Origin: Micromonospora kangleipakensis
Lineage (GTDB): Bacteria > Actinomycetota > Actinomycetes > Mycobacteriales > Micromonosporaceae
Length of the DNA: 64,000 bases
Direction of reading: 5' to 3'
NCBI RefSeq assembly: GCF_004217615.1
Contig: NZ_SHLD01000001.1
Coordinates: 6,324,001-6,388,000, forward strand
Translations under genes and position numbers: made by a program
The notes under the pieces: generated by a model
Told to the model about the DNA's origin: nothing
What the model saw: only the letters and a program-made list of their open reading frames with translations
Database searches by the model: none
Shown: positions 34,481-38,204 of the stretch, one piece after another
Layout of the letters: each line of letters begins with the position of its first letter
Position numbering within the stretch: the stretch's first letter is position 1

Positions 34481-35116
34481 ATGAAGATCGTCGTCTTCGG
34501 TACCGGTTACGTCGGCGGCGCCCTGGTGAGCGAACTCGCCGGCCGCGGGCACGAGGTCACCGCCGTCTCCCGATCCGGGAAAACCGACCTGCCGGCGCAG
34601 GTCGCCGCCGTCACCGGGAGCGTCCACGACCCCGCGTTCCTCAGCTCGGTAACCGCCGGGGCGGATGCCATCGTGGCCGCCCTGCCCGCCCTCAGCCCCG
34701 AAGGCAGCCTCGGCGCGGCCGTCACCGCCCTGCTCCGGGCTGCGCAGGAAAGCGAGGCGCGGCTCGGGGTCGTCGGCGGCGCCGCGATCATCCCCACCGT
34801 GTCGGGCGGTCCCCGCCAGGCGGACACCCCCGACTTCCCCGCCCGATTCGCCCCGGTCGTCGACGCCCACCAGCAGGCGCTGGACATCCTGAACTCGGCA
34901 CCTGAGAACGTCGACTGGTTCTACCTCATCCCGGCGGGGGAGTTCGGCGCCTACAACCCCGGCACCCGCACCGGGTCGTACCGCACCAGCAGCACCGCCC
35001 AGGTCACCAACGAGGAGGGCCGCTCGCTGCTCGGAGTGGCCGACTACGCGATCGCGTTCGCCGACGAACTCGAGAACCCGCGTACCCACCGCACCTGGCT
35101 CGCGATCGGCTACTAG
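34481..35116 (+). CDS. NAD(P)-binding SDR/NmrA-like reductase
   Basis: Protein of 211 residues with the N-terminal Rossmann motif MKIVVFGTGYVGGALVSEL and the atypical-SDR features LPALSPEGSLGAAVTALL and WFYLIPAGEFGAYNPGTRTG. Substrate unknown. AGGAGCAACC precedes the ATG. The stop codon TAG (35114-35116) is made of a TA that is the left target dinucleotide of the next mobile element plus that element's first G, so the insertion took place at the very end of this gene. The C-terminal WLAIGY looks natural. Confidence 0.85.
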   Translation: MKIVVFGTGYVGGALVSELAGRGHEVTAVSRSGKTDLPAQVAAVTGSVHDPAFLSSVTAGADAIVAALPALSPEGSLGAAVTALLRAAQESEARLGVVGGAAIIPTVSGGPRQADTPDFPARFAPVVDAHQQALDILNSAPENVDWFYLIPAGEFGAYNPGTRTGSYRTSSTAQVTNEEGRSLLGVADYAIAFADELENPRTHRTWLAIGY

Positions 35117-35143
35117 TGCGGTGTCCACTAACGTTCACCGGGT
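35114..35143 (+). repeat. left terminal inverted repeat of the tnpB element
   Basis: Thirty bases starting TAGTGCGGTGTCCAC and ending ACCGGGT; pairs with 36594-36623 at 25 of 30 positions. It includes the last three bases of the SDR stop and the tnpB stop codon. Confidence 0.7.
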
Positions 35144-36546
35144 GTGCGGTGGGTGTTGTGGATCCTCGCCTTGAAGGCGAGCGACTCCCCACCGGGTGGT
35201 GGGGCGGGCCTCCGCGGGCCAACCGATCCTCGCGCCGCCCGGGGTGGGCGGCGGGGGTCACGTCGGGATCGGCCGGCACCGGGCAGGTGCCGGCCGGCTC
35301 GACGGTGCGTGACCACCTCCGGCAGCACAACGTCTGTCGGGGTGGTGGATCCGCCGCCCGGAACACGGGTGGCGATGCTGGCGGCCGCGACCAGGTCGCG
35401 GTGCCCGGAGAATGCGCAGTGCGGGCAGGACAGGGTCCGGCCACGAGGTTTGGGAACCCGCCTGCGGCAGGCGGGGCAGGTGGAGGAGGTGCCGCGTTCG
35501 TCGACCAGGCGGACGGTGATGCCGGCGGGGGTGGCCTTGTCGGTGAGGATCTGCAGGAGCCGGCCGATCTGCCACTGCCGCAGCCGCAGGTTGTGCCGCC
35601 GCCCAGCAGGAATAGCGAGCACCCCGCGGGGGTCACCGACGTGCAGCACACCGACCCGCTGCTCCACCGCCCATGAGACGACGCTGCGGGCGGCTTCGTG
35701 CTGGGCTTGGCGGACCCTGCGCCGGTGCCGGCCCTCAACCAGGCGTGCCCGGCGGCGGTACTGCCGCCACCGCCGGGATCCCTTCTGGCCCGGCTTCGGC
35801 GCCCGGCGGGCGACGGCACGGCGGCGGGCCTTGGTGTCGGCCAGGTGCATGCGGTGTTCGGCGCGGATCGCCCGCCCCGACACCAACAGTCCCTCCCCAC
35901 CGGGGCCGGCCACCGCGTACGGGTGGATGATCCCCAGATCCACCCCGGCCACCCTGCCCGGATCCGGCTCCTCGCCCGGCGGATAGACCGCCACCGGCAC
36001 CTCGGCGGTCACGTCCAGGAACAAGCGGCCACCTTCACACAGCAGCGTGACCGACCGGACCTGCTCAACTGGATACGGCACCTCCCGCGCCAGACGCACC
36101 CACAACGCCGACGTGCCTTTCGCGGTCGGGATCCGCACCCGAAGTCTGTCAAGGGTGAACGTGCCGTGATACCAGCGCACCGGCACCAACCCCCGCCGAC
36201 GACGCGGATACCGCGCCGACAGGTCACCGTCCTTGCGGCGTTTCGCCGCCGCGAACCACGCATCGGAGAACCGGCGCAACACCGACCGCGCACCCGTGGT
36301 GTCCAGTTCCGCGAACGTGCCCGGCCCGGATGCCGCCAACACCCGGCACAACTCCTGATAACCGGACAGGGGTACGTCCCGGCGGCGCCGCCGCCACGCG
36401 TTGACCTCCAACACGCACGCCCACACGTCACCAGCCGAGCGCAGCAGCCCGAAACAACGGCGCCGCTGGCCCGGCGTCACCCGCAACGCGACGCGGGCGG
36501 TGCGATGCACGACCCGCGCAGCGGCGGGATCCCGACGACGAGGCAC
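35128..36546 (-). CDS. tnpB: TnpB-like RNA-guided nuclease
   Basis: Protein of 472 residues of the TnpB/IS1341 family, the ancestor group of Cas12. RuvC motifs: GVDLGIIHPYAV with Asp203, LHVGDPRGV with Asp305 where most TnpB proteins have Glu, and GHRDLVAAASIA with Asp384. The zinc finger CPAC...CPHC is at 357-377. After Asp384 comes an unusual 88-residue proline/arginine-rich tail, encoded where an omega RNA would overlap. Starts with GTG at 36546; the stop lies only 12 bases from the element end. No tnpA is next to it. Activity is inferred from intact acidic residues. Confidence 0.9.
   Translation of the reverse strand: MPRRRDPAAARVVHRTARVALRVTPGQRRRCFGLLRSAGDVWACVLEVNAWRRRRRDVPLSGYQELCRVLAASGPGTFAELDTTGARSVLRRFSDAWFAAAKRRKDGDLSARYPRRRRGLVPVRWYHGTFTLDRLRVRIPTAKGTSALWVRLAREVPYPVEQVRSVTLLCEGGRLFLDVTAEVPVAVYPPGEEPDPGRVAGVDLGIIHPYAVAGPGGEGLLVSGRAIRAEHRMHLADTKARRRAVARRAPKPGQKGSRRWRQYRRRARLVEGRHRRRVRQAQHEAARSVVSWAVEQRVGVLHVGDPRGVLAIPAGRRHNLRLRQWQIGRLLQILTDKATPAGITVRLVDERGTSSTCPACRRRVPKPRGRTLSCPHCAFSGHRDLVAAASIATRVPGGGSTTPTDVVLPEVVTHRRAGRHLPGAGRSRRDPRRPPRAARGSVGPRRPAPPPGGESLAFKARIHNTHRTPGER
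35150..35400 (-). ncRNA. candidate omega RNA overlapping the tnpB 3' end
   Basis: TnpB guide RNAs overlap the 3' end of the gene and run through the element end into flanking DNA. Here the 3' region has stable hairpins: CTCGCC/GGCGAG at 35165-35181 and CCCCACC/GGTGGGG at 35187-35204. The limits are not defined by sequence alone, and the guide would be copied from the SDR gene end. Speculative. Confidence 0.3.
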
Positions 36547-36593
36547 AAACCGAAGCCAACCCTACCGGTACGACATTTTCCCAACCCCGACCA

Positions 36594-36623
36594 ACCCGGC
36601 CAACGTTTTTGGACACGGCACTA
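36594..36623 (-). repeat. right terminal inverted repeat of the tnpB element
   Basis: Minus-strand sequence starts TAGTGCCGTGTCCAAAAACG and matches the left end at 25 of 30 positions. Its outer TA (36622-36623) is also the left flanking TA of IS630. Confidence 0.7.
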
Positions 36624-37758
36624 GTGCGGTGCGCCAGAAATTCGCCTGATAAGTGGGTATGGTGGTGGGATGCCGAGGACTGGGCGTCCCACCCCGCCGC
36701 TGACGTTGACCGATGAAGAACGTGCGACATTGACCCGATGGTCGCGGCGGGCGAAGACGGCGCAGGTCCTCGCGATGCGCTCCCGGATCATTCTGGCCTG
36801 CGCCGATGGCGGCTCGAACACTGATGTGGCAACGGCACTGGGTGTTCATCTGTCCACGGTGGGGAAATGGCGTCGCCGATTTTTGAAGCTGCGGCTGGAC
36901 GGACTGATCGACGAGCCGCGGCCGGGTCGTCCTCCGTCCATCGGTTTGGACCGGGTCGAAGAGGTCGTCGTCGCCACCTTGGAGCAGACGCCACGTAACG
37001 CCACCCACTGGTCGCGTACCTCCATGGCGGAGAAGTCCGGACTGTCGAAGTCCACCGTCGGACGGATCTGGCGGGACTTCGGCCTCAAGCCGCATCTGGC
37101 CGACACGTTCAAGCTCTCCACGGATCCGCAGTTCATCGAGAAGGTCGTCGACGTGGTCGGGCTCTACCACAACCCGCCCGAACGGGCCGTGGTGCTCTGC
37201 GTGGATGAGAAGTCGCAGATCCAGGCCCTGGACCGGTCCCAGCCGGTGCTGCCGATGATGCCCGGCATGCCCGAACGCCGCACCCACGACTACGCCCGCA
37301 ACGGCATCACCAGCCTGTTCGCCGCGTTCAACATCGCCGACGGCACCGTCATCGGCGAACTGCACCGCCAGCACCGCGCGACCGAGTTCAAGAAGTTCCT
37401 GGCCACGATCGACAAAGCCGTGCCAGCCGATCTGGACGTGCACCTGGTCTGCGACAACTACGGCACCCACAAGACCCCCGCCGTGCGGGCGTGGCTGGCC
37501 CGCCATCCCCGCTTCCACATGCACTTCACACCGACCGGTTCCTCCTGGATCAACCAGGTCGAACGCTGGTTCGGCTACCTCACAGAGCAGAAGATCCGCC
37601 GCGGCGCCCACAAGAGCGTTCACAGCCTGGAAGCCGACATCCGCACCTGGATCGCAGACTGGAACACCAACCCCAGGCCCTTCACCTGGACCAAGACCGC
37701 CGAGGAGATTCTCGAATCACTCGCACGATTTTGTAGGCGGATTTCTAGCGCAGCACAC
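36624..37758 (+). mobile_element. IS630 family insertion sequence
   Basis: Element of 1135 bases bounded by TA dinucleotides (36622-36623 and 37759-37760), the normal IS630 target duplication. The terminal inverted repeats are 24 bases, left GTGCGGTGCGCCAGAAATTC and right (reverse) GTGTGCTGCGCTAGAAATCC, 20 of 24 bases identical over full length. One intact transposase gene inside. It sits directly against the tnpB element and shares its right TA. Confidence 0.88.
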
Positions 37759-37761
37759 TAG
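36670..37761 (+). CDS. IS630 family DDE transposase
   Basis: Protein of 363 residues: N-terminal helix-turn-helix (VATALGVHLSTVGKWRRRF), then a second HTH region (SKSTVGRIWRDFGLKP), and a DDE catalytic domain with VLCVDEKSQIQ (Asp179), LVCDNYGTHK (Asp262) and INQVERWFGYL (Glu298), the IS630/Tc1 spacing. Full length and apparently intact. The stop codon TAG at 37759-37761 lies outside the element: it is formed by the target TA plus the first flanking base G. Confidence 0.95.
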   Translation: MPRTGRPTPPLTLTDEERATLTRWSRRAKTAQVLAMRSRIILACADGGSNTDVATALGVHLSTVGKWRRRFLKLRLDGLIDEPRPGRPPSIGLDRVEEVVVATLEQTPRNATHWSRTSMAEKSGLSKSTVGRIWRDFGLKPHLADTFKLSTDPQFIEKVVDVVGLYHNPPERAVVLCVDEKSQIQALDRSQPVLPMMPGMPERRTHDYARNGITSLFAAFNIADGTVIGELHRQHRATEFKKFLATIDKAVPADLDVHLVCDNYGTHKTPAVRAWLARHPRFHMHFTPTGSSWINQVERWFGYLTEQKIRRGAHKSVHSLEADIRTWIADWNTNPRPFTWTKTAEEILESLARFCRRISSAAH

Positions 37762-38204
37762 CCTGAGCCCTTCAGTAAGGGCGACCGCAGTTCCTCCAAC
37801 CCACCGCCGCGGTAAGTCGGCCGTCTCGGCCGCGACCCAAGGTGCCCCGCGTGCGACCCGGCCACACGGCCCTCCAGATCTGGCGACGCCGACACGAACA
37901 TTTTCGCAGCAGCATCTGTTGGCAACGCCATCCTGGACCGGGACGCGCACGACGGAGCGGCCTGCTGGCCGCGCGTACGGAGGCGCCTCGAGCTGACCCA
38001 TGCGGATGTCCTGATCGGACAGCGTGATCCTGCTCTGCCCGCGCGGCGTGCTGGGTTGTCAGCGCTGCGTGGCGGCGGCCGTGTCGGCCAGGCGGGCGCG
38101 GAACGGTTCGGACGCGGCAGGCCCGGCGATGAGGCCGACGTCCAGTTCCGACAGCGACCGGCCGGTGCGCATTCGTAGCGCAGCGGCCGGTCCGCCGCCT
38201 GAGA
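37762..38204. other. stretch without a convincing gene
   Basis: Between IS630 and the AKR gene. Plus-strand frames of about 60-90 codons exist but show no recognisable family. The minus strand holds one short frame coupled to the AKR stop, listed separately. Base composition is lower in GC than the core genes, consistent with decayed sequence near an insertion. Confidence 0.5.

Follow-up and report, generated by a model that had tools for sequence, protein, structure and literature searches.

The 64,000-nucleotide stretch analyzed here (hereafter, the window) comes from Micromonospora kangleipakensis (contig NZ_SHLD01000001.1, positions 6,324,001 to 6,388,000) and contains a gene for a TnpB nuclease that is enclosed by terminal inverted repeats (TIRs). 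The repeats delimit an element of 1506 bp (35116–36621) with a TA dinucleotide on each side, such that 35114–36623 reads TA-[1506 bp]-TA. Inverted-repeat comparison places one TIR at 36594–36621, on the 5′ side of tnpB, and the other at 35116–35143, on the 3′ side; the adjoining TAs are at 36622–36623 and 35114–35115. The TIRs are imperfect, with 23 of 28 positions identical without the TA and 25 of 30 when the outer TA is counted, the same figure as in a preliminary description of this DNA. As that description also stated, the open reading frames (ORFs) leave tnpB as the sole gene inside the TIRs (36546–35128, minus strand; 472 amino acids from a GTG start). In a scan for TA-bounded inverted repeats, the element scored 21 of 26. 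Among 400 random gene-sized intervals of the window, the single one that reached 21 was the element itself, and the runner-up scored 18. Based on the sequence comparisons below, this element is probably a non-autonomous transposon of the IS630 family (Tc1/mariner superfamily) that carries an RNA-guided nuclease.

Directly beyond the 5′ end, an insertion sequence of the IS630 family, designated IS630-A (36624–37758, plus strand; transposase coding sequence 36670–37761), lies at the TA of the element and has this TA in common with it. The TIRs were previously described as starting like those of this neighbor. This holds for the outer eight bases (GTGCGGTG), but the inner TIRs differ.

Copies and empty sites

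The genome of M. kangleipakensis, a single contig of 7.27 Mb, contains 13 full-length copies of the element at 13 places. The other 12 share 88–91% identity with the window copy; their ends coincide with its own, and their flanks differ. Shorter derivatives also occur. Among them, two internal-deletion derivatives, of 152 bp (L071, 1541–1692) and 307 bp (L074, 1907–2213), have lost tnpB and keep both TIRs, the TA, and a GC|TA 5′ flank. Of 160 genomes in the genus, own genome included, 27 yielded a near-full-length match; the best two candidates per genome were scored, such that copy numbers elsewhere are lower bounds.

Among the best 120 homologs, those with a named source are mostly from Micromonospora. 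A scan of named genomes yielded 58 loci. Of these, 35 were tested for TIRs, a set without partial matches or loci truncated at a contig end; it overlaps with the genus scan in some insertions. Both ends are present and TA-bounded in 21 of the 35 (TIR scores of 17–25 of 26), and four more have both ends with one outer TA mutated (L171, L174, L186, and L194). Five loci have the 3′ TIR alone (L166, L188, L191, L192, and L200), and in another five the TIR pair was not found (L170, L183, L201, L203, and L209). Because the RNA covariance model described below matches the 3′ ends of L170, L183, L201, and L209, these four are apparently members that have decayed or diverged. Both ends were found in genera including Micromonospora, Plantactinospora, Paractinoplanes, Rugosimonospora, and Actinoallomurus, whereas in Dactylosporangium both ends are present and the outer TA is mutated.

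Empty sites were searched for six copies, using queries in which the flanks were joined around one TA. For L010, which was inspected base by base, the joined flanks match uninterrupted sequence in relatives, with a single TA-GGG in all 17 loci inspected and a C before the TA in 16 of them; the 5′ TA of L010 itself is mutated to TC. For L003 and L006, matches also run across the junction. With TA on both sides in most copies and one TA in the empty sites, TA is duplicated on insertion. The preliminary description had named repeated and precise TA-bounded copies, copies with and without tnpB, and empty TA sites as signs of a mobile element, and all of these were found. It had also considered that boundaries of other copies might not coincide with the repeats, or that the repeats might always surround a DDE transposase with tnpB absent and unrelated. 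At some loci (10 of the 35 tested), one or both TIRs could not be located, but no inspected locus has boundaries off the repeats, and the repeats surround tnpB as well as a transposase.

An autonomous form, with transposase and tnpB in one TIR pair, was not seen among the TIR-bounded elements measured, which are 1.2–1.6 kb and too short for both genes. Searches of plasmids and phages returned distant TnpBs alone (54 and 6 records, respectively, each <60% identity).

RNA domain and flanking motif

The conserved protein core of tnpB extends to ~35365, and the C-terminal tail overlaps a putative right-end element RNA (reRNA, also known as omegaRNA). The codon-position signal is strong to ~35365, appears again in 35304–35245, and is gone from 35244 onward, where the DNA stays conserved though several copies are in another frame. 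The last ~123 nt of the element constitute a conserved RNA domain, with the 3′ TIR base-paired to an internal segment. The predicted scaffold (35114–35236, minus strand, the extent of the covariance-model match) has five helices and takes in the TIR and the duplicated TA. In an alignment of 52 tails, picked from the copies with near-duplicates left out, 94.3% of the cells in the five helices are paired and nine pairs are changed on both sides; none of 500 shuffles reached these values. The window copy, itself among the 52 sequences behind the model, matches the covariance model with 146.2 bits. The five-helix structure was based on the fold of the window copy taken as a single sequence, and RNAalifold without aid returned 17 pairs, with outer helix 4 included, helix 5 absent, and a small covariation term (-0.43). 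A possible outer stem (GGATC/GATCC) was left out of the RNA, as its sides do not covary by eye.

Helix 4 is formed by the internal segment UCCACAAC and the 3′ TIR (GUU.GUGGA), which carries the 3′ arm. The proportion of paired cells in this helix is 94.5%, and slides of one to three columns give 24–37%. Its covariation score was matched in 0 of 500 shuffles, and its both-side changes were matched in 4 of 500. Compensatory changes were observed from U-A to A-U in three sequences (L060, L166, and L194) and from C-G to A-U in four Actinoallomurus sequences (L175, L191, L192, and L215). No internal partner was seen for the 5′ TIR, which makes a purely DNA-level role of the TIR pairing less likely. 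Moreover, the 3′ TIR is less variable than the 5′ TIR (entropy of 0.23 versus 0.58 in 34 of 39 copies, with five that have a differently starting 5′ end left out), as expected if the 3′ TIR serves both the transposase and the RNA. From these patterns, we infer that the TIR has been built into the guide-RNA scaffold.

The covariance model matches solo copies in the own genome. Among 21 loci of other TnpB groups (L136–L155 and L165), one chance-level match was obtained (L140, E 0.55), and L308, a plasmid- or phage-borne locus discussed below, has no match. Weak matches (E 0.003–0.02) occur on the ends of IS630-B, a transposase-bearing element described below that carries the same TIR type. An Rfam search of 34900–36800 up to E 1 matched no family.

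By position after the scaffold, and by analogy with the reRNAs of IS607 TnpBs and Fanzors, the predicted guide is the flank right after the TA (35094–35113, minus strand; a length of 20 nt is assumed). The flanks of tnpB are asymmetric. On the 5′ side, which reads GC|TA, G is at -2 in 43 of 47 sites and C is at -1 in all 47; on the 3′ side, G follows the TA in 42 of 47, and the mirror base C is at +2 in 12 of 47 (Fisher p 5e-11 versus the 5′ side). These 47 sites derive from 60 loci that represent 53 distinct sites, with six adjoining IS630-A set aside; the flank base was placed by hand for L008 and L053. In contrast, the flanks of IS630-B are symmetric, with G in 15 of 23 and 14 of 22 (a TIR pair was found in 23 of 26 loci, one of them without a readable 3′ base). 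A palindromic preference of the transposase does not predict such asymmetry, whereas a transposon-associated motif (TAM) does; we predict a TAM of GCTA that overlaps the duplicated TA. In the six copies with IS630-A at the 5′ side, the flank beyond IS630-A is GC|TA in every case, as expected if IS630-A came later. In the window, the corresponding TA and GC (37759–37762, GC|TA in the tnpB sense, minus strand) are presumed to be the original 5′ flank with the predicted TAM, split off by IS630-A.

The guide might instead be a fixed internal segment. The ancestral scaffold would then have ended after GGATCCACAAC, with the next ~20 nt of the element as the guide and, for example, the ends of related elements as the target. 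Most copies are alike in the segment that follows GGATCCACAAC. Furthermore, L308, the best-ranked relative from plasmids and phages (34% identity), encodes a TnpB with the same motif-defined active-site arrangement (see below), lacks TA-bounded TIRs (14 of 26), and by reading of its sequence has a comparable terminal hairpin with a short tail behind it. However, the segment after GGATCCACAAC forms helices 4 and 5 with compensatory changes, such as G-C for A-U, which are also visible by eye in the miniature inverted-repeat transposable element L071. These changes indicate conservation of structure rather than of a guide sequence. A guide derived from the flank would also agree with the asymmetric GC|TA flank, and we consider a fixed internal guide unlikely.

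The two miniatures, L071 and L074, retain the 3′ part of the reRNA (helices 3–5 in L071, by eye), and each has its own downstream guide. If the shortened RNA works, they could use TnpB from full copies, and they are possible guide-only parasites of TnpB.

Nuclease and candidate transposase partner

The protein encoded by tnpB matches NCBIfam NF040570 (guided_TnpB) with 134.5 bits (cut-off of 100), and PF07282 and PF01385 also exceed their cut-offs; a RuvC-like nuclease domain and a TNB zinc-finger domain are present. An AlphaFold model (mean predicted local distance difference test score, pLDDT, of 69.5; shallow alignment) matches TnpB and Cas12f, with viral Fanzor2 lower. Given this pLDDT and the large root-mean-square deviations, the model was taken as evidence of fold alone, and a PDB sequence search agrees (TnpB/Cas12f). 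The RuvC1 motif is DLG. In an alignment to Cas12f, glycine occupies the position of the canonical RuvC2 glutamate (HVGDPRGV), and an alternative glutamate (Ealt) is found six residues ahead of a zinc-finger cysteine (VDERGTSSTCPAC; ExxxxxxCxxC). The residues D202, E349, and D383 do not vary among the 27 aligned sequences (the window TnpB and 26 picked from the best 120 homologs). By motif, the D-E-D triad (DLG, Ealt, and HRD) is present with a relocated, Fanzor-like RuvC glutamate. The Ealt arrangement was described for Fanzors and a subset of TnpBs, and Fanzors have near exclusively DPG in RuvC1 according to Yoon et al. (2023; PMC10711439). The protein studied here has Ealt together with DLG rather than the DPG of Fanzors and pro-Fanzors, and its motifs assign it to the Ealt and D-hydrophobic-G clade of Yoon et al., not to Fanzor or pro-Fanzor.

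The tnpB frame is uninterrupted in 9 of the 13 own copies. The gene is under purifying selection, with a ratio of nonsynonymous to synonymous substitution rates (dN/dS) of 0.12 over 28 pairs (eight of the nine intact own copies) and 0.18 over 91 pairs (14 copies from the genus). Three of the interrupted copies (L002, L004, and L011) have a GTGCTCTGACC-type 5′ TIR, a longest frame that opens at 401–402, and IS630-A at the 5′ end, and are perhaps one sub-lineage. TnpB could be a dead passenger, either inactive or repressor-like, while the transposase alone spreads the copies. Both the missing canonical glutamate and the interrupted copies would fit this explanation. Nevertheless, the invariant triad, the low dN/dS, the conserved reRNA, and the flank asymmetry all argue against it, and the Ealt arrangement is that of Fanzors (PMC10711439). 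A dead passenger is therefore improbable.

The own genome has 44 matches to the TnpB family model, element copies included, and these comprise several other TnpB groups. Ends matching those of the element were not seen at 10 loci (five pairs) of these groups. Some of the groups have the canonical glutamate, and no TIRs are present in the five pairs inspected.

For the transposase partner, the best candidate is IS630-B, a second IS630-family transposase that has matches (with a 140-aa N-terminal query) in 81 of the 160 genomes of the genus. IS630-B elements are ~1.24 kb in 17 of the 23 measured, and their TIRs are of the tnpB-element type, such that the element has TIRs in common with a transposase-bearing relative. 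One end of the IS630-B element of L094 is identical to the 5′ end of tnpB copy L012 over 34 of 34 bases, counting the TA, beyond which the two diverge. We conclude that the tnpB element uses IS630-B-type ends, and infer that the likely mobilizer is an IS630-B-type transposase acting in trans, not the adjacent IS630-A. Five of the 23 measured IS630-B elements (L086–L089 and L098) belong to a 1.53-kb variant with ~290 extra bp behind the transposase gene. In L088, by reading of the sequence, these extra bases hold a small ORF on the opposite strand, and they have no blastn match to the RNA region of the tnpB element besides the TIR.

Alternatively, IS630-A may mobilize the element, with the tnpB element and IS630-A moving as a composite. 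In the own genome, the 11 IS630-A copies are the only IS630-family matches to nearly the whole model; all 11 abut a TIR of the IS630-B/tnpB type, and GTGCGGTG is common to the ends. However, the inner TIRs of IS630-A differ while IS630-B matches up to 34 of 34, and 7 of the 13 own tnpB copies have no IS630-A neighbor. Furthermore, five other IS630-A copies are ~100% identical to that of the window, whereas in L009 and L012, which have a near-identical IS630-A and a full-length tnpB neighbor, this neighbor is only ~89% identical to the one in the window. Because of this difference, IS630-A seems to have arrived later and repeatedly. With the TIR mismatch past the first bases and the age difference of the copies, IS630-A was rejected as the mobilizer, and movement as a composite is highly unlikely.

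The 11 full IS630-A copies (L021–L031) are located at the 5′ end of tnpB (eight), at its 3′ end (two), or at an IS630-B-like end (one), and nine of them abut the TIR by their left end. In other genomes, IS630-A abuts such a TIR in 3 of 13 informative loci (L285, L286, and L304; by eye). This bias is perhaps explained by insertion at CTAG-TGC junctions. The C before the TA on the 5′ side of tnpB and the G after the TA on its 3′ side point to CTAG as the target. A preference of IS630 for CTAG was reportedly found by Tenzen and Ohtsubo in 1991, going by the title of their work. CTAG occurs 12 times in the window, compared with ~151 expected from base composition, and three of these 12 (35113, 36621, and 37758) are ends of the tnpB element and IS630-A.

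A probable bacterial counterpart of mariner-borne Fanzors

Taken together, the copies, the TA duplication, the empty sites, and the ends in common with an IS630-family element support the earlier proposal of a non-autonomous IS630-type element with a TnpB. Several points weigh against this interpretation. The own copies differ by about 10%, which offers no sign of recent movement in this genome, and at 10 of the 35 loci tested at least one TIR went undetected. In the own genome, IS630-B consists of fragments, with no intact transposase by family search. Among the 27 element-bearing genomes, only 15 have an IS630-B match, which is no enrichment over the background of 81 in 160, and the mobilizing partner may be another IS630 subfamily in many hosts. 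As for the nuclease, tnpB is interrupted in 4 of the 13 own copies, and with glycine in place of the canonical RuvC-II glutamate, catalysis would rest on the motif-inferred Ealt. As for the RNA, the fold energy alone is modest (z -2.37), and the covariation reflects few independent events among related sequences. Finally, the preference on the 3′ side (12 of 47) is below that of IS630-B (14 of 22), which the transposase control does not explain. That the element is not mobile at all, being a TIR-like artefact or a segmental duplication, merits next to no credence: the window taken alone offers only an imperfect 23/28 repeat, but it is already contradicted by 13 identically bounded copies in unrelated flanking sequence, by the empty sites, and by the occurrence in other genera.

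For a non-autonomous IS630-type transposon of this kind, we propose the following mechanism. An IS630-B-type transposase would bind the common ends and move the element in trans by cut-and-paste. The tnpB transcript would be processed to an reRNA in which the scaffold runs through the TIR and TA and the guide is the flank beyond. TnpB with this guide would recognize GCTA followed by the guide sequence and cut the resealed empty site, where alone the two are contiguous, because the element parts the 5′ GC-TA from the guide. Repair from the sister copy would then put the element back, turning cut-and-paste loss into copy retention.

In Tc1/mariner elements of eukaryotes and their viruses, Fanzor1 genes were reported by Bao and Jurka (2013; PMC3627910), including the transposase-less PUl-4. 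Like these, the present element has a TnpB-family nuclease, TIRs in common with transposase-bearing members, TA duplication, and no internal transposase; its host is a bacterium. The Fanzor1 of SfAV is likewise in a non-autonomous TIR element (Yoon et al., 2023; PMC10711439). Differences are that SfAV Fanzor1 and Fanzor2* belong to a eukaryotic virus or a eukaryote and that the SfAV RNA is backed by small-RNA sequencing, whereas the RNA proposed here is backed by covariation. The preliminary description had suggested a counterpart to the Fanzor/mariner association. The present results support this suggestion and extend it to Ealt, a TIR in the predicted guide-RNA scaffold, and a probable TAM overlapping the duplicated TA. 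It appears reasonably likely that an Ealt-type TnpB was captured by an actinobacterial IS630 element, convergent with the mariner Fanzors, with the TIR in the scaffold, TA in the TAM, and miniatures with their own guides.

IS607, IS200/IS605, and solo tnpB (the IS1341 group) also have tnpB with a 3′ reRNA and a TAM at the insertion junction. However, IS607 and IS200/IS605 encode a serine or Y1 transposase and lack comparable TIRs, whereas the present element has TIRs and no transposase inside. Insertion sequences of the IS630 family, such as ISY100 (PMC2170065), also have TIRs and a TA target that is duplicated; they carry a transposase, which tnpB replaces in this element. Yoon et al. (PMC10711439) state that TnpBs are associated only with IS200/605 and IS607 and pose the reason as a question. 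In the open PMC literature searched, bacterial TnpB is linked to IS200/605, IS607, and IS1341-type elements, and no title or abstract opening among the search results reports tnpB in a bacterial IS630 or other TIR element. Both the nuclease and the transposon superfamily are thus known, and their combination appears to be new for bacteria within the open-access literature searched.

If this interpretation is true, bacterial TnpBs extend beyond IS200/IS605 and IS607, and the element would be a counter-example with a DDE-type, double-strand cut-and-paste partner in several actinobacterial genera. The TIR and guide RNA would evolve together, and the TAM would have come to include the duplicated TA. 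The question of TnpB partners would become testable in bacteria, in particular how a guide RNA absorbs a foreign TIR, whether the TAM preference tracks the target site newly acquired, and whether cutting by an RNA-guided nuclease favors the persistence of a cut-and-paste transposon. In addition, compact Ealt TnpBs with a predicted GCTA TAM may be of interest for high-GC hosts.

At the window locus, the element is inserted exactly at the stop codon of a gene of the NAD(P)-binding type (34481–35116), whose TAG consists of the duplicated TA and the first G of the element (35116).

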